In this document: one piece after another, positions 5,507 through 19,818 of the stretch
How positions within the stretch are numbered: the first letter of the stretch is position 1
How the letters are laid out: every line of letters starts with the position of its first letter
Virus record (IMG/VR): IMGVR_UViG_3300017989_000484
Span: 1 to 21,737 of that record
DNA: 21,737 nt
From: a virus
Strand: one strand, 5' to 3'
The notes under the pieces: model-generated
Seen by the model: the letters and a program-made list of their open reading frames with translations, nothing else
Databases searched by the model: none
Told to the model about the DNA's origin: nothing
Position numbers and translations under genes: made by a program

Positions 5507-6268
5507 CTATGCCCTTCGTGCGGTACGAGCCGGGACCTTCGCCTCGTAGCGCGACGGGTCGGGAAACATGGTCGACAACGCTGTGCGGAAGTGTCGCCAG
5601 GACAAGTCGGTGGTCGAGTGGAACGGCGTGCGGAGCTTGCCGGGACGGAACGCCTTCGAGTCCTCGATGAGAACACTGTCCTCGCGGCGAATGTTCAGGT
5701 TCCCGTACAGCGTTCTCCACTGCGGTGGATTCGTGGGCGTGATCTCCGAGAAGCGGGTGAGCGTGTCGGCCATGAGCTGTCTGTCCGCCGGAAACGGCAC
5801 GTGCAGCTCGTAGCTCAACGGGTCGTCGACACCGATCGCTTGCAGGCAGATCTTCGTCGTCCGCAGCGACTCCGCCCACCACGAGGACTTGCCGTTCGTA
5901 GCCATACGGACACGGGGAAGCCGCAGGTGAGCGTCGAGCGAGCTTCGGTAGTACACGGGGAGGGCCGTCAGTGGCTCGGTCAGGAAGAAGTCGTCGTTGA
6001 ACACGATGACCTCGTCTGACACCCCTTGCGTTGAGCAGGCCGTGAGGATATTGCGAAACACGTTGGTCTGCGAACTCGCGCTCGTGTTGCCGGGGATGAA
6101 CTCGACGCCGGTCAGCCAGTTCGGCTTGTACCCCACCACCCACACGGTGCCGTGATCGGGGAAGAAAGCCTCCAGCGAACGGAGGCTGTACCGCAGCTCG
6201 TCGTTGGTGTCGCCGGGGCGAACCGGATAGATGACGTCGCGCATGATCGTGCTACGCCGCTGTGTCAC
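5507..6268 (-). CDS. Stealth-like glycosyltransferase / sugar-phosphate transferase
   Basis: A 253-residue protein. The start is GTG at 6268, which overlaps the previous stop (GTGA) as at other junctions here; ATG at 6244 (residue 9) is an alternative. Motifs in order: DVIYPVR (11-17), a helix ELRYSLRSLEAFFPDHG and strand TVWVVG (24-46), VIVFNDDFFL with the Asp pair (88-96), YELHVPFP (153-160) and WRTLYGN (184-190). The order of a nucleotide-sugar-like start, 'DD(F/M)F' and a later 'H.P' resembles the Stealth family, which transfers hexose-1-phosphate or related groups to glycans. Substrate unknown. It lies between two small structural genes and a membrane-protein pair, so a virion protein or the host envelope are the possible targets. 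Base composition is like its neighbours. Confidence 0.7.
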   Translation of the reverse strand: MTQRRSTIMRDVIYPVRPGDTNDELRYSLRSLEAFFPDHGTVWVVGYKPNWLTGVEFIPGNTSASSQTNVFRNILTACSTQGVSDEVIVFNDDFFLTEPLTALPVYYRSSLDAHLRLPRVRMATNGKSSWWAESLRTTKICLQAIGVDDPLSYELHVPFPADRQLMADTLTRFSEITPTNPPQWRTLYGNLNIRREDSVLIEDSKAFRPGKLRTPFHSTTDLSWRHFRTALSTMFPDPSRYEAKVPARTARRA

Positions 6269-9287: not shown

Positions 9288-9989
9288 CTACGGCAAGACC
9301 ATAACTGTGTCCGGTGCAGAGGTGTCGGGATCCCGGCGTTTCACCATGAAAGCGACACGGTTGTCGGTAGGCCGACGAGAGCCCTCGGCTTCGATCCGCT
9401 CGTAGCGACTGTGCCGGTGGAGATACCCGTGGACAGCGAGAGCGCACCCGTCCCAGTACCAATAGTCGTCGATGATGATGAGCCCGCCGGGATTGACGTA
9501 CGGAAACAGTGACTCGAGCACCTCGGTGGTGGACGAGTACCAGTCACCGTCGAGGCGCAGCAGTGCGATGCCGTCCGGATACCCCTCGTCGCCGGGCAGC
9601 GTCTGGGAGAACCACCCGACGTGTGTGCGGTAGTTGTCGACACCGGCGAGCGCCATGGCTTCGATCGCCTTGTCCTCGGAGGCGGCGCAGTTGTGTCCCG
9701 TCACCGCTTGCCACTCCACCGCCGATTGACCGGACGGTGTGCCACCGTCGATGTCCTCAGCGGGCGGGAGTCCACGGAAACTGTCGAACAGGTGGTATCG
9801 GCGCTCGTTGCCGAGCAGGCTGGCGATACCGGCGATCATGCCGCCGCGCCAGACACCGCACTCAACGACGGCTCCTGGCACGTTGCGGGTCTCGAGTGCG
9901 AGCTCAAGGTTCGTCACGTACCGGCGCTCCTTCACCATGGAGTGCCGACGGAATCGCCGCCATACGTCATGCAGTGAGCTGTTCTTCAT
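9288..9989 (-). CDS. TylF/MycF-type sugar O-methyltransferase
   Basis: A 233-residue SAM-dependent methyltransferase. ATG at 9989 overlaps the stop of the previous methyltransferase by 4 bases. Motifs in order: VVECGVWRGGM (41-51, SAM-binding motif I), HLFDSFRGLP (66-75, with the acidic residue after strand 2), LLRLDGDWYSST (143-154) and LIIIDDYWYWDGC (170-182), whose paired Asp residues fit the metal-binding site of the TylF/MycF family. These enzymes methylate hydroxyls of deoxysugars in macrolides and similar glycans; phage copies are thought to act on glycans. Length is close to the family norm. It lies inside the head gene cluster, 77 bases before the capsid start. The family is confident, the phage substrate unknown. 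Confidence 0.85.
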   Translation of the reverse strand: MKNSSLHDVWRRFRRHSMVKERRYVTNLELALETRNVPGAVVECGVWRGGMIAGIASLLGNERRYHLFDSFRGLPPAEDIDGGTPSGQSAVEWQAVTGHNCAASEDKAIEAMALAGVDNYRTHVGWFSQTLPGDEGYPDGIALLRLDGDWYSSTTEVLESLFPYVNPGGLIIIDDYWYWDGCALAVHGYLHRHSRYERIEAEGSRRPTDNRVAFMVKRRDPDTSAPDTVMVLP

Positions 9990-10543
9990 TTGTCGGCCCG
10001 TCGCGTGACGGCCATTCGCCTACCGACCAGTTCCAGCCACGAGAGGCTGCCGTTCAGAACGAGACTGTCAACGGCAGACACAACGCCGGGGAATCGGTCG
10101 TAGTAGTCGTCGAACACCACGGTGGCGTTGTCGGCCAGATGAACGTCCCAGGCCGTGAAGTCCCGCAGCACGGAGTCGTGCGTGTGTTCTCCGTCGATGT
10201 AGAGCAGGCCCACTTTCAGCCCGACCGTCCAGGTCGCTGCCGCGTCGGTGGACAGCGCCCGCTGAAACGTCGCACCTCGGGCGGTCTCCATCGCGATCTC
10301 CATGTCGCGGTGCCGGTAGCGGCGATGCATGTGCGGTCGCCCCTCATAAGCCCCCTCGAGCCCCCAGGAGTCGATGCCGAACACCGGAGCGCCCAGACCC
10401 GCCGCTGCGCCCTCGACGATGACACGCAGCGACCCGCCCTGATAAACACCGATCTCCACGCAGGCCGTGTCGGAGGGCGTCTGAGCCGCGAGTTCTCTCA
10501 GACGTTCGAGCGCGACGATCTCGGTCAGCGTCTCGGTGTTCAT
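9986..10543 (-). CDS. Second SAM-dependent methyltransferase (Methyltransf_24-like)
   Basis: A 185-residue class I methyltransferase. ATG at 10543 overlaps the stop of the small Cys-rich gene by 4 bases, and its own stop overlaps the next methyltransferase. Motifs: ACVEIGVYQGGSL (27-39, SAM-binding), VFGIDSWG (54-61), LLYIDGEHTHDSVLRDFTAW (113-132) and TVVFDDYYDRFPGV (141-154). The 'IDG.H....V..D' stretch and following 'DDY' are typical of the CmcI/TylF-related or Methyltransf_24 group. That group methylates small molecules and sugars rather than DNA. Being coupled to the TylF-like gene suggests a two-step modification of the same target. It could also form a heteromer with it. Confidence 0.8.
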   Translation of the reverse strand: MNTETLTEIVALERLRELAAQTPSDTACVEIGVYQGGSLRVIVEGAAAGLGAPVFGIDSWGLEGAYEGRPHMHRRYRHRDMEIAMETARGATFQRALSTDAAATWTVGLKVGLLYIDGEHTHDSVLRDFTAWDVHLADNATVVFDDYYDRFPGVVSAVDSLVLNGSLSWLELVGRRMAVTRRADK

Positions 10544-10719
10544 CGCGGTCGAACAACCTTCCGTATCGTCCCGCCGCCTGCCTGACGAACCTCGACCTTG
10601 GCCTCGATCAGTGACAGAAACTCGGATGAGCTGGTGCCGTCTGGATAGGTGACGACGTAGCCGACCACTGTCACGCCGCTGGCGGCAGCACGACGACGGG
10701 CACCGCAACCGCAACCCAT
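10540..10719 (-). CDS. Tiny Cys/Gly-rich protein between protease and methyltransferases
   Basis: A 59-residue protein whose ATG at 10719 shares one base with the protease stop (TGATG), and whose stop overlaps the next start by 4 bases. It begins MGCGCGARRR, then has a small beta-alpha-beta-like part (VVGYVVTYPDGTSSSEFLSL, EAKVEVRQAGGGTIRKVV). Similar small proteins with an N-terminal Cys pair and a 'TYPDG' strand occur after the capsid protease in actinophages. Function unknown. The tight overlaps support a real gene. Confidence 0.75.
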   Translation of the reverse strand: MGCGCGARRRAAASGVTVVGYVVTYPDGTSSSEFLSLIEAKVEVRQAGGGTIRKVVRPR

Positions 10720-13700
10720 CAGCGACGCGCCAACAGGTCGGCGATCTCCTCCGCCGGTGTCGGAGGACGAGTGATGCGCGAGGCCCGCTCGAGCAGCTCG
10801 GACTTCTCGGCTGCACGCTTCGCCTCGAGATCCGCGACGCGCGCTTCGCCGATCGCCTCCTTGACCGCTGCCTTGATCTCGTCGGCGGTAATGACCGGGG
10901 AGACGTCCTCGGCAACGTCCTCGTCGGTGGGGCCGAGTGACGCGACCAGGGCGATCGGACGCCCCTGCTCGTCGGAGCGGCCACGGGCCGAGAACCCTGG
11001 CGTGTTCACGGCCAGCGCGGCAACCAGCTCGAGCCCCTGACCGAAGTCCCGCCAGTCGCCGGACAGTGGCGACGAGAGACCCTGCTCGATCTGGTCGGCG
11101 GTCGCCCACGGAGCCGCGACGCCGGAGAACCAGATGCCGTGATCGTCCTCGCCCACTCTGACCAGCGCGAAGCAGGTTCCCGTGTTGTCGTAGTGTGCCG
11201 CTGCCGCTCGGCCGCTCGCGCCGGGGCTGGCGTGACCGGTGCCGACGGTGAGACGTCCCACCGGAAGCCGCTCGCCGTTGTCGAGACGTACAGCCGGGCT
11301 GGTGTGGAAGTGCGCGTAGTTCGCCCGGCTGCGGGGAGCAATGACGCACTCGGTCTGAATCGACCGATGGCACTCACCGAAGCAGGCGAGGTGGCCGTAG
11401 ATCCGGCCGTCGTCGCCCATCGTCGGAAGCGTCGGCCCCTCGAGCTGGGGATTCTGAAACAGCCGGTGGTCGTAGACGCGCGGGCGGAACTCCTCCGCTG
11501 CCGCCGCGACCAGTGCCACGTCGCGGGACTCGCGCTCCAGGTTCAGCGGCAGCGTGGTGTCGCCGAACGCCGGAGTCGCCACCAGCGTGGTGCCGATCAG
11601 CTCGGCCTCGGTGATCGTCATGAACACCTCACCGTCACTGTCCTCACTGATCTCGTTACCGTCGCGGTCGGTGACCACCCAGCTGGCCGCAGCGAGGTCG
11701 ACACTGGGACGGGTCACGCCGTGCGCGAGCTGGTCCGCCGCCTCGTCGGCCTCGGCCGTGTTCAGCAGGTACCCCGACGCGACGATCGTGTTGTCACGCT
11801 GCTCGGCGGACTCGATGACGCCGACGGTGTAGGCGCTGGTGTGCCCCTCAGCGCCCTGCTTCATCCACATGAGCGGAAGTGGAAACGCACGGAAGGTCAG
11901 AGTGATGTCCGACCGCAGCATTCGTCCGTCACTGGTCGGCGTGCCGATGAACGCCACGACGGCGTCGGTGAACGTGCGGAACTCTCCGTCGCTCATGATG
12001 TTCTCCTGTTCGGTCGGCGAGCTTGCTGTCATACTCTCAGCCAGCAGGGCAGGCGGCACGAAGCCGAGACCGGCCGGGTCCTCACGAGCACGGATAATCC
12101 CCTGCCGCTGACGGTGAATGATCTCGTTCCGTTGAGCGGAGTTACGTCGCTGCTCGCGCGGAAGCGGCGCGTCGGGCGGGGCCATGCCGACACGGCAGCG
12201 GCAGTTGCGGACCTCCTGAGACGGCCCACTCGGATCGCCGGGATACTCGAGCTCAGCACCGCCGACGAAGAACGGGTCCTCGACTCTGGCCTTCTGACCG
12301 TCGGCCGCGAAGTGCGTGTGCCGAGTGCGGCGGTCCATGTGCGCGCACCAGACCTTGTCGAACTCGACGCCCGATGTTGACGCGGCGTTGAGCATCGCCT
12401 GGTTAATGATCCCTGCCGCTTGCAGACCGCTCTCACGAGCGACGTCACGGAACCGTTGGAAAAAGTCGGCAGCCGGGCGGGTCGGTCCCGGTTCGTAGAT
12501 GTTCTCGTACGCCCGCTCCATCTGAGTGCCTTCGGACCAGTCTCCGCGTGATCGCGCCTTGGCGAGCTTGGCGGCGATCTCACGAAGCCCCTCGGGGCCT
12601 CTGGGCATCAGCTCGTTGGTCCGAACGCTGCTGAAGGCGTCCACACCGGTACCGAGCCAGGCTCCGAGCTCGGCTCTAAGCTCCGAGATAGGTATGGCGC
12701 GGCGGCTGTTCTTGTTCGTGGTACCCACAAGCAGATCTCGTAGGCGGCTCGGTATGGACTTGCCTGCTGGAGGGTCGTAGGAGCCGAGGAACATCTCGAG
12801 TCGGCGACGGCTGCCGACCTGATCCCAGAGCAGGAGAGCCGCCATCTTGACCTGGTCGGGATCGGTGTCCCAGGCCAGTGCCGTCATGCGGGCAACAAGA
12901 TCAAGACCGAGCCGCTGCTGCCCGGATCGGGGCGCTGTCGGTGCGGGCCAGTTGGCCTCAACCCACTTGGGCGAAGTGCGATCTTCGGTGTACGTGTTCG
13001 CGGCCGTCTGCTCGGGAAGGGCGTTACGGATCATCATGGTGCGGGGGAATAGGCGCTCGGGCTCGGGAGGTAGCTCACCGAACGTCGGTCCTCCGAACTT
13101 CTCTGCCAGCGCACGGAAGGTCGCTTGCTTCTCGTGCATGTGCTCAAGCCATGTCGGGAAGTCCGATGACCAGTTGGCAGATGCGCCTGATGGCGAGATC
13201 CCCTTCGTGGTCGGCGGGGGATTCATGATCTGGTCGCGGATTCGAGCGGATCGCCGCTCATACTCCTCTGGGGAATACGGGCTGTGCACCCACCACTCGG
13301 CTAGTCCGTACGGGTTGTCAGGAGTACCGATCGGGATAGGCGCGCCGGTGCGAGGGTCCGTTGTCCACTTGATCTTCGCGGCATCCTTGCGGCGCAGCTC
13401 TGCAAGCTGCTTCAGAGCCTCCTCGCGTTCCTCGGGTGTCGAGGGCGGGAGGTAGCCGGGATTACCCGGTATCTCCCACGGGGGACGATCGTCGTCAGGC
13501 TCGCCGTCAGCTGTCAGAGCTGGAACGGGACGAGTGTCCGACGCCAGATCCATGCACAGCACGTACGCGGTCTGAACGTAGGCGAAGCACCACATCATCG
13601 CCATCACGGGAATGACGCTCAGCTCGACGAGCTCGTCCCACAGGGCCTGCGCGTCCTCGGACACCAGAACATCGAGGTCGGGAGGCGTGGAGTCGTCACC

Positions 13701-13820
13701 TGCGAGAACCTTCGGGATCATCTCCGACAGCCAAAGTGCGAGCGGGGCGTGATAGGCCCGCTCGAGCGCCCACTCAGCGGCCTCGGTGGTGACGGTCTGC
13801 TCGTCGTAGTCAGGCCACAT
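10719..13820 (-). CDS. MuF-like head protein fused to capsid maturation protease
   Basis: A 1033-residue fusion. ATG at 13820 shares one base with the portal stop. The N-terminal 480 residues are mostly helical with no clear enzyme motif. A MuF-type domain spans about 485-546 (EFDKVWCAHMDRRTRHTHFA, GQKARV, VRNCRCRVGM), a minor head protein that contacts the portal. The second part, from M609, is a capsid maturation protease (about 610-765, with LIGTTLVATPAFGD). A further domain follows (about 805-925: YGHLACFGECHRSI, FHTSPAVRL, GTGHASPG, HYDNTGT, SGDWRDFG), seen behind many actinophage proteases. The tail (residues 968-1033) is helical. Protease and MuF being one frame is known in these phages. 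An internal AGGAG/ATG at 11996 may give the protease alone. Confidence 0.85.
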   Translation of the reverse strand: MWPDYDEQTVTTEAAEWALERAYHAPLALWLSEMIPKVLAGDDSTPPDLDVLVSEDAQALWDELVELSVIPVMAMMWCFAYVQTAYVLCMDLASDTRPVPALTADGEPDDDRPPWEIPGNPGYLPPSTPEEREEALKQLAELRRKDAAKIKWTTDPRTGAPIPIGTPDNPYGLAEWWVHSPYSPEEYERRSARIRDQIMNPPPTTKGISPSGASANWSSDFPTWLEHMHEKQATFRALAEKFGGPTFGELPPEPERLFPRTMMIRNALPEQTAANTYTEDRTSPKWVEANWPAPTAPRSGQQRLGLDLVARMTALAWDTDPDQVKMAALLLWDQVGSRRRLEMFLGSYDPPAGKSIPSRLRDLLVGTTNKNSRRAIPISELRAELGAWLGTGVDAFSSVRTNELMPRGPEGLREIAAKLAKARSRGDWSEGTQMERAYENIYEPGPTRPAADFFQRFRDVARESGLQAAGIINQAMLNAASTSGVEFDKVWCAHMDRRTRHTHFAADGQKARVEDPFFVGGAELEYPGDPSGPSQEVRNCRCRVGMAPPDAPLPREQRRNSAQRNEIIHRQRQGIIRAREDPAGLGFVPPALLAESMTASSPTEQENIMSDGEFRTFTDAVVAFIGTPTSDGRMLRSDITLTFRAFPLPLMWMKQGAEGHTSAYTVGVIESAEQRDNTIVASGYLLNTAEADEAADQLAHGVTRPSVDLAAASWVVTDRDGNEISEDSDGEVFMTITEAELIGTTLVATPAFGDTTLPLNLERESRDVALVAAAAEEFRPRVYDHRLFQNPQLEGPTLPTMGDDGRIYGHLACFGECHRSIQTECVIAPRSRANYAHFHTSPAVRLDNGERLPVGRLTVGTGHASPGASGRAAAAHYDNTGTCFALVRVGEDDHGIWFSGVAAPWATADQIEQGLSSPLSGDWRDFGQGLELVAALAVNTPGFSARGRSDEQGRPIALVASLGPTDEDVAEDVSPVITADEIKAAVKEAIGEARVADLEAKRAAEKSELLERASRITRPPTPAEEIADLLARR
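11996..12007 (-). promoter_or_regulatory. Internal ribosome binding site and start in the MuF-protease gene
   Basis: Inside the fusion frame, AGGAG (12007-12003 on the minus strand) stands exactly 6 bases before ATG 11996 (residue 609). This is better than the site of the full ORF, whose start overlaps the portal stop. It lies at the boundary between the MuF part and the protease part, so it could start a free protease of 425 residues in the same frame. Confidence 0.6.
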
Positions 13821-15989: not shown

Positions 15990-16433
15990 GTGCTCACCAT
16001 GGCGGACGTCCGGTGCATCGACTGTCTCGCCGAGGGCGTGACGCGCCCTCGCCCGACACCGCACGGAGGGCCTCGGTCGCCGCGATGCGTGACCCATCAC
16101 CGCGCCAAGAAACAGCGGGAACGGCTGCGTGCTCACGAGCTGAAGGTTCAAGCGGGGTACGGCATCAGTGGAGAGCAGTACTGGCAGTTGTACGCCGCTC
16201 AGGACGGCAAGTGCTTCATCTGCCAGCGCGCCACCGGCCAGCGGAAACGGCTGGCGGTCGATCACGAGCACAACAAGGACGGCTGCACGCATCCGCCGGA
16301 GACCGGCTGTCCGGCCTGCGTGCGGGCACTGCTGTGCGGCCCGTGCAATCAGATGATCGGTCGGCTCGGCGTCGCGGCCCTGACACGCGCGATCGACCTG
16401 CTTCAGAATCCACCGGCACAGAGCATTCTGTGA
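15990..16433 (+). CDS. HNH / recombination endonuclease VII-like nuclease
   Basis: A 147-residue protein on the plus strand, opposite to its neighbours. GTG at 15990 (GGAG 4 bases upstream) is the chosen start; ATG at 15999 is also possible. The N-terminus has a CIDC pair (9-12) and C33 with nearby His, possibly a small zinc finger. Then follow YGISGEQYWQLYAAQDGKCF (57-76), a CxxC at 75-78, VDHEH (90-94) and LLCGPCNQMIG (114-124). This is the endonuclease VII/HNH type with the second Cys pair of its zinc site, a nuclease that cuts branched or target DNA. It lies between terminase and a membrane gene in the minus-strand operon, as mobile HNH genes often do. Confidence 0.85.
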   Translation: MLTMADVRCIDCLAEGVTRPRPTPHGGPRSPRCVTHHRAKKQRERLRAHELKVQAGYGISGEQYWQLYAAQDGKCFICQRATGQRKRLAVDHEHNKDGCTHPPETGCPACVRALLCGPCNQMIGRLGVAALTRAIDLLQNPPAQSIL

Positions 16434-16469: not shown

Positions 16470-16503
16470 GGCGCGTACGAGCGAAAGCGTGCTGGTACGC
16501 GCC
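16470..16503. terminator. Bidirectional hairpin between convergent HNH and terminase genes
   Basis: A perfect 9-base inverted repeat (16470-16478 and 16495-16503) with a 16-base loop. It lies 36 bases after the HNH stop on the plus strand and overlaps the last base of the terminase stop on the minus strand, so it can end both transcripts. No T-run follows on either side, as is common in GC-rich genomes. Confidence 0.65.
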
Positions 16504-18146
16504 TATCCGATCCGTCGCTTCAGCCAAGCGGGAGTGTCCACAGGTCGAATCGGAAACGGAGCCGTCATCGTGATCTGGCCCGCACTGAGCGCAGCCAGCC
16601 GATCGTGGGCAATGAGAGCGGCAGCGACACGGTCGGGCTGATGCTGTCCGGACTGCCAGTCCGCCGCCTCCGCCTCGAACACCGCGAGCTTGTGTTCGAC
16701 GGTGCGGCACTTCCCCGTCTCGAACGCCTGCCGCAGCAGCGATGACCGGCCCACCGCGTCGACGGAACCACGTCCGCGCCACTTGTAGATCACGAAGGGC
16801 ATCTGCACGGGAAGTGCCCGCTCCTCCACCGCTGTCAGCGGAGCGCCCCGCTGCTTCTTGGTCACGACCTCGGTGTGCAGATCCTTCCAAGCTCGACGCA
16901 GAACCGCCTCGTACGTCGTCGCCGACGAGTACGCCTCCATCGCGATCTCGCGGGCGTTGACCTCGAGCGCCAGCAGCACCGCCTGCCTGGCCCATTCGTC
17001 AGCCGTCATCTGTCCCGACCAGTCCTCGGTCAGCGTCACGATGCCGTCGCCGCCAAGCGACGCGGCGATGATTCCGGTCTCGTCCCCTCGCCCTGAGTCG
17101 GCAGGGTCCACGCCGACAACGGACGCCACCACGCGTTCGGGAGGCTCGGGGACACGGGTCTCGAACCAGGACCGCATGAACAGCCCACCTGCGGGGTTGC
17201 GTGGACTGCCCTGATACAGCGCGTACCAGACACGCTCACCGATCTTGCGTCTCGTCTGCTCGAACTCGTGCCGCGTACGGCCTCGCGCACTCACCATGAC
17301 CTCGCCCGGCTCTCGGCCCAGCGAGTCGGTGATTCCGTCCTCGGCGATGGCCGGAATGTTGATATGACGCCACGTGCGGTACTGCGGAGCGATCTGCGAC
17401 TCACCGGCGATGATCTGACCGGCAAGGTCCTCGGGATGCCAGCGGGTCTGAATCAGAATCATGCTGGCCTCGGGCGAGAGCCGCGTCTGGGCCACGGAAG
17501 CGAACCATTCGTCGACCTTGCGCCGGTGGCTGGCGCTGTCCGCCTCGATCATGTTCTTGTACGGGTCGTCGATGATGAACAAGTCGGCAGCGCGGCCGGT
17601 GATGGACGAGCCCAGGCCCACGGCGATCATGCCCCCTCGAGCTCCAGCGATCCGCCAGGACTGCACACGGGACGACGTGGTGGACAGCTGAAGGCCCAGC
17701 TTGTCCTCGATGGAGACACCGGTCATGGCGTCGACCACGCCGGAGCCGTGACGGAGGATCAGATCTCGGCAGGCCCGGCTGTGGTCCTCGGCCAGCGCAT
17801 CGCCGTAGGTCGCCAGAATGATCCGTCGGTTTGGATTCAGCTGAAGCGCCCGCAGTGGTGTGAAGATCGCACAGAGCGAGCTCTTGCCCTCCTGCGGCGG
17901 CGTGGTGACCAGCAGGTTGTGGCGCGGCTTGGTCAGTACCACCTCGATCGCGTCGGCGATCATCTTCAGTGCAGGTGTGATGTGGTAGCCCGGATCGACC
18001 GCGTGCGCGAGCTCGGCCGCATTGCTGTAGAGCGTCTTGACACGCTCGCGCGACTGCGAGGCGCGGAGATACTCGAGCATCGCCTGCCTCGCCTCCGGCT
18101 GCCATGAGCTGGAGACGTTGCCGACGACGTCCGGCGAGTACGTCAT
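16503..18146 (-). CDS. terL: Terminase large subunit
   Basis: A 547-residue ATP-driven DNA packaging motor and nuclease. ATG at 18146 overlaps the stop of the glycosyltransferase gene by 4 bases. The ATPase part has a Walker A variant TTPPQEGKSS (81-90) and Walker B LFIIDDP (189-195), followed by a coupling segment with TRWHPEDLAG (234-243). The nuclease part has VVGVDPADSGRGDETG (343-358; the first catalytic Asp is 347), E404 in IAMEAYSS and QPDRVAAALIAHDR (503-516), which supplies the late Asp. Length and motif order are normal, so the enzyme seems intact. No small-terminase gene is visible beside it; the ParB-like gene may take that place or the small subunit may lie elsewhere. Confidence 0.95.
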   Translation of the reverse strand: MTYSPDVVGNVSSSWQPEARQAMLEYLRASQSRERVKTLYSNAAELAHAVDPGYHITPALKMIADAIEVVLTKPRHNLLVTTPPQEGKSSLCAIFTPLRALQLNPNRRIILATYGDALAEDHSRACRDLILRHGSGVVDAMTGVSIEDKLGLQLSTTSSRVQSWRIAGARGGMIAVGLGSSITGRAADLFIIDDPYKNMIEADSASHRRKVDEWFASVAQTRLSPEASMILIQTRWHPEDLAGQIIAGESQIAPQYRTWRHINIPAIAEDGITDSLGREPGEVMVSARGRTRHEFEQTRRKIGERVWYALYQGSPRNPAGGLFMRSWFETRVPEPPERVVASVVGVDPADSGRGDETGIIAASLGGDGIVTLTEDWSGQMTADEWARQAVLLALEVNAREIAMEAYSSATTYEAVLRRAWKDLHTEVVTKKQRGAPLTAVEERALPVQMPFVIYKWRGRGSVDAVGRSSLLRQAFETGKCRTVEHKLAVFEAEAADWQSGQHQPDRVAAALIAHDRLAALSAGQITMTAPFPIRPVDTPAWLKRRIG

Positions 18147-19015
18147 GTCGCGGAGTCATCCACCTTGCGGTATTCGTCGCTCAGAATCTGTGGCACCGCG
18201 AACCGCCACAGGACTCGGTGGTGGATCCGCTGCGAGGAGCCCATGGGCGTAATGATGACGCACGACGGTGCCATCATGACGGTGTAGAACGACTTCAGAT
18301 ACGTGCCATTGTCGCGGTACACGTCGGACATGCCGCCGTCGTTCATCTGCGTCGGAGGCTGGTGCAGCTGAAAGCCGGTGTGCGTGAGCAGCAGCTCGCC
18401 ACGGTTCCCCTGCGTGACGTACGTGTTCACGTCCTCGTTGATACGGCCGACGAACTCGACGGGACGGTCGGTGCGGATGAAGAAGCTGTTCATCGCCTTG
18501 CGGGCGAGCCCCCGCTGGAAGAACCCGCCTCGCTGTGTGCCGCTGATGTAGTCACCGCCCTGCGCGAAGGCGACGGTGAGGGCGTCGGTGTCGTCGAGAA
18601 ACCGCAGGTAGTGGCAGATCACCTCGTCGAGGCTCTTGGTCATGATGTTCTTGAGCTCGTCGCCGATGTTGATTCGATGCGAGAAGTACGTGTAGTCGTC
18701 GTCGAGCTGAATGTGCCACTTCAGGCCGAGGTCGGCCGCGATCTTGCTGGCCGCGTTCCGCGCGTAGACGATCGTGCGCCGGTTGTCGGACTGGTCGGCG
18801 GTGTCGAAGGTCTTGGATATGGCGAGCTTGTCGAACTCGATGACCTGATCTCCGTACCGCTCACGGTACTGCGGGGCGGTCTCGTCCTCGTTGTCGATGA
18901 CGATGTAGATCGGGCCGGTGTACCCGCGCTTACGGAGCGAGTTGTACGTGATGACACGGTCGGGCCTGCCATGCGTGAGGATCAGGGCCGCGAAGCCCTC
19001 GGGGACTCCGCTCAC
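18143..19015 (-). CDS. TET-associated-type glycosyltransferase (TAGT-like)
   Basis: A 290-residue protein, GTG at 19015 overlapping the ParB-like stop (GTGA). Motifs in order: LILTHGRPDR (11-20), IVIDNEDE (38-45), QLDDDYTYF (103-111, the metal-binding DxD), GRINEDVNTY (190-199) and a C-terminal pattern with TQMNDGGMSD (222-231) and GTYLKSFYTVMMAPS (237-251). This matches the phage glycosyltransferase family named for its links with TET/JBP dioxygenases, which is thought to add sugars to hydroxylated bases in DNA. The gene overlaps both the ParB-like gene and the terminase gene by 4 bases, so the product is made with the packaging proteins. No TET or cytosine methylase is in the window. An alternative is a virion protein or envelope target. 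Confidence 0.75.
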   Translation of the reverse strand: MSGVPEGFAALILTHGRPDRVITYNSLRKRGYTGPIYIVIDNEDETAPQYRERYGDQVIEFDKLAISKTFDTADQSDNRRTIVYARNAASKIAADLGLKWHIQLDDDYTYFSHRINIGDELKNIMTKSLDEVICHYLRFLDDTDALTVAFAQGGDYISGTQRGGFFQRGLARKAMNSFFIRTDRPVEFVGRINEDVNTYVTQGNRGELLLTHTGFQLHQPPTQMNDGGMSDVYRDNGTYLKSFYTVMMAPSCVIITPMGSSQRIHHRVLWRFAVPQILSDEYRKVDDSAT

Positions 19016-19818
19016 AGCTCCTCCGGCTGTTCCTCGAGATCCTTCGAGAGCGTGTCGCGGAGCGCGTTGGTCAGCCGGACGTAGCCTTTCTTGATCGCGT
19101 GGTCGAAGTCGATCAGCACGAGTGCCTGATCCTCCATCAGCCGCTGGACCTCGGCGGGTGCGCTCGCGTAGTAGTCCGCGACCTTGTGAAAGTCGATGAC
19201 GGTGTGCCGCTGCGCGGCACGGAGCAGGAACGCGGTCACGTCGTCGGGCAGCTTCGCCTTCGTGATGGCTTTCTCGAGCTCGAGTGTGCGGCTGACGTCC
19301 ATGCACTCGGACAGGTCCGGCGGATCGTCGGTCGGCGTGTAGTGCGGGACCTCGGTCTTGTCGCTGTACTTCGGCGTCGTGTCGGAGGCCCGCTGAAGCT
19401 GGTCGATGTCGGCCTGCGTGTAGCTCAGCCCCTCGAGGTCGTCGCCCATGTCGTTGAGCAGAGACAGCAGCTCGTCGGTGTCGTAGCCGCCCAGCTGGGA
19501 CGTGCGGTTGTCGACGAGCACGATCCGGTTGGCGCGGTCGTCGTCCACGTCGACCCAGTGAACGAGCATCGTGTCCCAGCCCTCGTCGGGATGCTGCTCG
19601 GCCAGGTCGCGGAACGCCATCAGTGTGTGGTTACCGGCGAGCACCTCGTTCTGCCGTCCGGTGTGCGTGCCGATGTTCACCACGATCGGCTTGTACTGAC
19701 CGTGCGCCCGCAGGCTGGCGGCGATGGCCTTGACGTCACCTCGTCTCGGATTCCGGTGGAACGTGGACAGGTCTTTGATCGGTACCGAGGTCGTCGCCCC
19801 GGTCAGCGATGTGGTCAT
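19012..19818 (-). CDS. ParB-like protein with C-terminal phage domain
   Basis: A 268-residue protein, start ATG 19818 (an ATG at 19887 in the same frame is disfavoured, since it would run through the divergent promoter region). Residues 1-120 carry the ParB/sulfiredoxin pattern: VPIKDLSTFHRNPRRGDVKA (12-31), SLRAHGQYKPIVV, VLAGNHTLMAFRDL (59-72), VDDDRANRIVLVDNRT (91-106) and GYDTDELLSLL (111-121). A second domain (about 170-262) has FLLRAAQRHTVIDFHKVADY (197-216) and EVQRLMEDQALVLIDFDHAI (223-242). Phage ParB-like proteins may bind DNA or act as nucleases or NTPases; the GNHT (62-65) replaces the usual Arg-bearing box. It is first in the minus-strand operon, coupled to the glycosyltransferase and terminase, a place where the small terminase often stands. 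Confidence 0.75.
   Translation of the reverse strand: MTTSLTGATTSVPIKDLSTFHRNPRRGDVKAIAASLRAHGQYKPIVVNIGTHTGRQNEVLAGNHTLMAFRDLAEQHPDEGWDTMLVHWVDVDDDRANRIVLVDNRTSQLGGYDTDELLSLLNDMGDDLEGLSYTQADIDQLQRASDTTPKYSDKTEVPHYTPTDDPPDLSECMDVSRTLELEKAITKAKLPDDVTAFLLRAAQRHTVIDFHKVADYYASAPAEVQRLMEDQALVLIDFDHAIKKGYVRLTNALRDTLSKDLEEQPEEL

Follow-up and report, generated by a model that had tools for sequence, protein, structure and literature searches.

In the viral contig IMGVR_UViG_3300017989_000484 from IMG/VR, analyzed here over its positions 1 to 21,737 (the window), a gene for a TET-associated glycosyltransferase (TAGT) is wedged between genes for a ParB-like protein and the large subunit of the terminase (TerL). 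This arrangement raises the question of what the enzyme modifies and what brings it to its target. The features concerned are as follows:

19012-19818, minus strand: ParB-like gene with a 268-residue product (P0002); phrog_6392, 231 bits
19393..19818, minus strand: ParB-like N-terminal domain (N-domain), P0002 residues 1-142; apparently a swappable module of the DNA-clamp type; ParB/Srx fold
19012..19392, minus strand: TAGT-partner C-terminal domain (C-domain), P0002 residues 143-268; all-helical, without a Pfam match
19012..19015, minus strand: 4-base overlap GTGA between the ParB-like stop and the glycosyltransferase start, read from the sequence
18143..19015, minus strand: TAGT-family glycosyltransferase of 290 amino acids (P0001), GTG start; PF20691, 113 bits; phrog_842, 221 bits; GT-A fold
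18143..18146, minus strand: 4-base overlap ATGA between the glycosyltransferase stop and the TerL start, read from the sequence
16503..18146, minus strand: TerL, 547 amino acids; Terminase_6N PF03237, 31.7 bits; phrog_38, 315 bits

The initial annotation had assigned the glycosyltransferase to the TAGT family from four motifs, noted its 4-base overlaps with both neighbors, and proposed its coupling to the ParB-like protein and the terminase, all of which our analysis bears out. The PF20691 profile matches the protein with an E value of 2.3e-32 (113.1 bits against a cut-off of 27.5), and the DDD, NED.N, TQ..GGM and GTY.KSFY motifs are all present, at D105-D107, 192-197 (INEDVN), 222-229 (TQMNDGGM) and 237-244 (GTYLKSFY), with D106, D107, N193, D195, T222, Q223, G227, G228, G237-Y239 and K241-F243 invariant across 55 relatives. 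The AlphaFold2 model (pLDDT 86.6) has a GT-A fold with a conserved acidic site of the DxD type, formed by the invariant D106/D107, and its viral structural neighbors, the T6-type enzyme of Klebsiella phage PKO111 among them, carry the name TET-associated glycosyltransferase; a sequence search of the PDB with the TAGT profile returned only noise. The ParB-TAGT arrangement is not due to chance, because the same gene is found in a second IMG/VR contig (L007; 99.9% DNA identity, reaching 4.2 kb further right) and phages of Nocardia, Lactobacillus, Escherichia and Haloarcula show the same gene order. ParB followed by TAGT is encoded at or near the terminase in Nocardia phage NTR1, Escherichia coli phage 683R6, Lactobacillus phages jlb1 and c5, and the archaeal virus HHTV-2.

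What the initial annotation overlooked is that the obligate partner of TAGT is not ParB but the C-terminal domain of the ParB-like protein, of about 110 amino acids. Judging from profile matches, this protein is a chimera of a ParB N-terminal half and a TAGT-partner C-terminal half. The N-domain, which resembles the ParBs of cluster-B mycobacteriophages, scores 207 bits against the ParB of Suigeneris and 145-192 bits against other cluster-B and Gordonia phage ParBs that have other partners; it is 57-68% identical to mycobacteriophage and Gordonia phage ParBs occupying the same slot before TerL, whereas its match to the TAGT-associated ParBs of Lactobacillus, Escherichia and Haloarcula is 18 bits or none. 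Conversely, residues 143-268 match every TAGT-partnered protein (86-97 bits) and none of the ParBs with other partners. The assignment of the N-terminal half to ParB rests on the phrog_6392 match and on a fold matching ParB/Noc and ParB/Srx proteins, with PF02195 (ParB_N) at 13.8 bits falling short of the required 26.3; of 51 related proteins, 41 give a PF02195 match at E<=0.01, and among the Foldseek matches listed for the model, the N-domain alone was matched. Furthermore, a free-standing C-domain of 139 amino acids adjoins TAGT in a Vibrio phage. The mirror-tree correlation of TAGT is 0.72 with the C-domain and 0.61 with the N-domain (0.41 and 0.20, respectively, for distant pairs), a result that modestly favors coupling of TAGT to the C-domain over the N-domain.

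The pairing of the C-domain with TAGT is nearly universal. A homolog of the partner protein lies directly upstream of TAGT in 79 of 80 IMG/VR loci, the sole exception being cut by the contig edge, and profiles for both proteins detected the C-domain in 261 of 265 TAGT loci from IMG/VR and GTDB genomes, with three of the remaining four located at contig ends and one, L251, a real exception. The TAGT of L251 (L251:7956-8879) is the only one of its clade that has upstream room and yet no C-domain anywhere in the 36.8-kb record. Across four sets of loci, of which one was retrieved with the C-domain alone, the two are adjacent in 78/80, 36/36, 78/80 and 63/69 cases; all loci fetched by the C-domain alone encode TAGT, 78 of them adjacent and 2 with an insert in between. 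Among 50,697 phage records, the C-domain was found in 28, all of which belong to the 34 carrying this TAGT, and it is absent from the complete genomes of T6 and ctUhy936 and from eight complete phages that pair the same ParB N-domain with another partner. In one locus, a fusion gene resembling histidine phosphatase and cytidylyltransferase is inserted between the C-domain and TAGT (L219:5308-6303). Ten non-redundant loci encode tandem TAGTs (L015, L071, L107, L118, L138, L171, L212, L256, L274 and L284), with three copies in L138 (5255-7922), which suggests stepwise sugar addition.

The C-domain is found in two contexts. The classifiable non-redundant cassettes comprise 145 in which it is fused to ParB and 19 (~12%) in which it is free. 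A recognized TerL gene lies within ~6.5 kb downstream in 76 of 95 ParB-fused cassettes but in only 3 of 15 free ones (p=1e-5), whereas a gene for a beta sliding clamp is found near 8 of 19 free and 1 of 145 ParB-fused cassettes (p=6e-8); these counts share ancestry, such that the p-values overstate independence. The clamp gene scores mostly below Pfam cut-offs, though consistently across loci, and several of the free cassettes with a clamp gene also carry a family A DNA polymerase. The free C-domains bear tails with peptides resembling the known beta-clamp-binding consensus QLxLF (PMC4549789), such as KQASLFG, KQQSLFG, KQVTLFG and VQMALF, among others. The pattern Q..[LM]F occurs in 7 of 18 distinct free tails (shuffle mean 0.17), compared with 0/135 and 0/157 N-termini or linkers of ParB-fused proteins, and [LM]F in 15 of the 18 (shuffle mean 3.0); these Q-L-x-L-F-like peptides concern the stand-alone relatives of the C-domain, not the window protein. 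ParB is, then, exchanged in these phages for a clamp-binding-like tail accompanied by a clamp gene. The simplest account of these sequence patterns is that the C-domain would link TAGT, as an adaptor, to a DNA clamp, a role that ParB would take over in the packaging slot. A precedent for a DNA glycosyltransferase linked to a sliding clamp is the alpha-glucosyltransferase of T4, which binds its clamp gp45 (PMC13216743); that enzyme, however, is an unrelated protein with the GT-B fold, whereas the tether considered here would be a separate adaptor domain whose clamp-binding tail can apparently be replaced by ParB. The combination of the obligate C-domain with the exchange of clamps is the new element.

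The slot before the terminase is one for DNA modification more generally. In Brownie5 and Sour, it contains genes for ParB, TGT/DpdA, QueC, QueD, QueE and FolE, followed by TerL; Suigeneris and Zemanar encode a TGT without the full QueC/QueD/QueE/FolE set, unannotated in Zemanar. Other genes sharing the slot encode a PAPS reductase in Marley1013 and Laroye and a DNA methyltransferase fusion in Shambre1. Brownie5 is a Rosebushvirus, and the DNA of Rosebush contains dPreQ0 at ~28% of G (PMC6884629). The Rosebush-type module resembles the window cassette in its position, the ParB N-domain, the four-base overlaps and the TerL gene a few genes downstream, but differs in the enzyme, the C-terminus of ParB and the chemistry, which is base replacement instead of glycosylation. 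Given the location of the ParB-fused cassettes just before the terminase, and of a cos site adjoining the cassette in phage c5, ParB could instead steer TAGT to the cos or pac site, where the sugar would mark the DNA for packaging or counting instead of protecting the genome at large; we consider this highly improbable, considering that ParB-free cassettes mostly lie away from the terminase and that PreQ0 made by the enzymes of the same slot is distributed genome-wide. The proposal of the initial annotation that modified DNA is made or recognized at packaging is too strong, the ParB-free cassettes often lying beside DNA polymerase and sliding-clamp genes. The hypothetical protein gp2 of Zemanar (L089:785-1759) is a queuine tRNA-ribosyltransferase/DpdA-type protein (phrog_6059, 556 bits), and in Pseudanabaena phage Pam4 (L097:5896-8385), the ParB N-domain lies inside a protein annotated as a pyridoxal-phosphate-dependent enzyme, possibly another DNA-modification fusion.

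DNA is the likely target of TAGT. A distant member of the family, the T6 TAGT (beta-glucosyl-HMC alpha-glucosyltransferase), adds a second glucose to cytosines of phage DNA (PMC13216743). It shares with the window enzyme the GT-A fold, the context of phage DNA modification and a PF20691 score above the cut-off, albeit of 37 bits compared with 113 here; unlike the window gene, it touches a dCMP hydroxymethylase gene, and the enzyme requires glucosyl-hmC and has no C-domain in its genome. The family name and the adjacency of TAGT and hydroxymethylase genes in T6 and ctUhy936 would favor canonical glycosylation, in which a hydroxylase encoded elsewhere in the genome makes 5hmC or 5hmU for TAGT to glycosylate, and the window record, an incomplete 21.7-kb contig, leaves room for such a gene. 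Nevertheless, neither TET/JBP nor another base hydroxylase or a pyrimidine hydroxymethylase gene was found in that record, and visual inspection of the open reading frames in the 4.2-kb extension of the second contig revealed nothing hydroxylase-like. Among 59 cassette records, PF00303 (hydroxymethylase/ThyA), a search that detected both T6 and ctUhy936 as controls, matched in 3, in 2 of these within ~6 kb of the cassette, and Tet_JBP (PF12851) in none, a weak negative, as 397 genomes of one phylum yielded no positive control for the latter search. Lactobacillus phage c5, whose 31.8-kb genome is complete, carries the cassette but no recognizable hydroxylase among the Pfam families listed. Together with the absence of the C-domain from both hydroxymethylase-linked genomes, these results make the canonical route unlikely. 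Phage TET/JBP-associated glycosyltransferase operons likewise share the Pfam family name and profile with the window-type cassettes, but the latter pair TAGT with the obligate C-domain and ParB. Hence, of the initial proposal that TAGT glycosylates hydroxylated DNA bases, DNA as the target stands as the best reading and dependence on a hydroxylase is unsupported. As for the sugar, NAD-dependent epimerases join the cassette in nine loci, and UDP-galactopyranose mutase is encoded directly after TAGT in four (L287:8866-9993, L133:7840-8988, L148 and L182), hinting at UDP-galactofuranose as the donor in some phages.

Distinctly unlikely, in our assessment, is that the substrate of TAGT is a protein of the virion or of the packaging machinery, such as the capsid, portal or TerL, instead of DNA. 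The window is a siphovirus head-and-tail region encoding portal, head-maturation/portal-type fusion, major head, head-tail and tail proteins, and amid the head and tail genes lie those for a Stealth_CR2-like protein (5507-6268, minus strand; 33 bits, below the cut-off) and for TylF-type and Methyltransf_24-type methyltransferases (9288-9989 and 9986-10543, both on the minus strand), which possibly constitute a separate set for virion-protein glycosylation and sugar methylation. The GT-A structural neighbors of TAGT include protein glycosyltransferases as well. Against a protein target, however, the cassette is also found within replication modules, next to the genes for DNA polymerase A and the beta clamp, its slot otherwise holds DNA-modification genes, and the T6 homolog acts on DNA.

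The model that we favor, and to which we give about even credence as a whole, is that TAGT, tethered by the C-domain adaptor to a DNA clamp, glycosylates DNA. The enzyme would take a sugar from a nucleotide-sugar donor and attach it to a base in the phage DNA, probably protecting the DNA against restriction, while the C-domain would bind both TAGT and the clamp and thereby hold the enzyme on DNA-tracking machinery. In the window phage, the C-domain would be anchored through its fusion to the ParB/Srx-type clamp domain, and the cassette occupies the pre-terminase DNA-modification slot, so the DNA would probably be modified late, shortly before it is packaged; elsewhere, in phages whose C-domain bears a short, putatively beta-clamp-binding tail, this domain would act at the replisome. 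Several observations weigh against this model. Modified DNA is known directly from no phage with this cassette, and for HHTV-2 we found no restriction or nucleoside data in the literature. Foldseek matches to the protein-modifying glycosyltransferases COLGALT1 and SunS equal the best of any; the window and T6 TAGTs show no significant similarity in BLASTP, and comparing their profiles gives a weak result over small alignments. The clamp-associated loci belong in part to a single phage lineage. CTP-dependent ParBs carry a CTP-binding GERR motif, in place of which the window ParB has GNHT, rendering its clamp activity uncertain; at this position, 36 of 51 relatives have G[N/H]xR and 15 have T. 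Finally, no enzyme that would supply an acceptor hydroxyl is a recurrent neighbor of the cassette, the commonest neighbors after the pair being the TerL, TerS and portal genes. The acceptor is therefore either made by the host, or made by an unrecognized protein, which may be the C-domain itself, or is a base position that needs no hydroxylation.

A 2026 survey of 753 phage genomes reported 288 with solitary TAGT homologs that lack the known partner glucosyltransferases, and did not settle what these homologs do (PMC13216743). A large group of TAGTs now gains a defined obligate partner domain and a proposed recruitment mechanism that can be tested by binding. More tentatively, C-domain/TAGT cassettes might represent an unrecognized, widespread DNA hypermodification that operates without a dedicated hydroxylase or hydroxymethylase, on an acceptor new for phage glycosyltransferases and with interchangeable clamps, ParB-type before packaging and the beta clamp at the fork. 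Should the DNA mark prove real, it would be widespread among prophages of many phyla, and should the reaction dispense with a hydroxyl-making enzyme, its acceptor chemistry would be new.

Escherichia coli offers an accessible model, with intact prophage cassettes annotated as broken. There, the cassette consists of ynaK and a gene named 'GREB1-related protein' and lies in Rac-type prophages, with trkG on one side and the terminase on the other; 905 of 5,426 complete genomes contain 80% or more of this cassette. The ynaK open reading frame is intact (262-263 amino acids) in the two genomes in which it was read, whereas RefSeq labels full-length ynaK incomplete or a pseudogene, a call that probably traces to the truncated YnaK of the laboratory strain; the laboratory strain CM5 encodes a truncated YnaK of 87 amino acids and no TAGT. 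The ynaK loci bearing on the RefSeq flag and the CM5 truncation are L290:6969-7760, L292:2969-3226 and L291:4969-5232. Short matches to ynaK in E. coli and plasmids, considered as module swaps, were rejected as deletions in defective prophages and given no evidential use.

Some further observations concern individual records. One contig (L260) is a perfect inverted duplication about its middle, probably an assembly artifact. In the window, a 1,033-amino-acid open reading frame (10719-13820, minus strand) matches families of the head-morphogenesis and portal/head-maturation-protease types and appears to be a fusion, and an endonuclease VII gene (PF02945, 73 bits) lies at 15990-16433 on the plus strand, between the portal and TerL genes and opposite to the structural genes.

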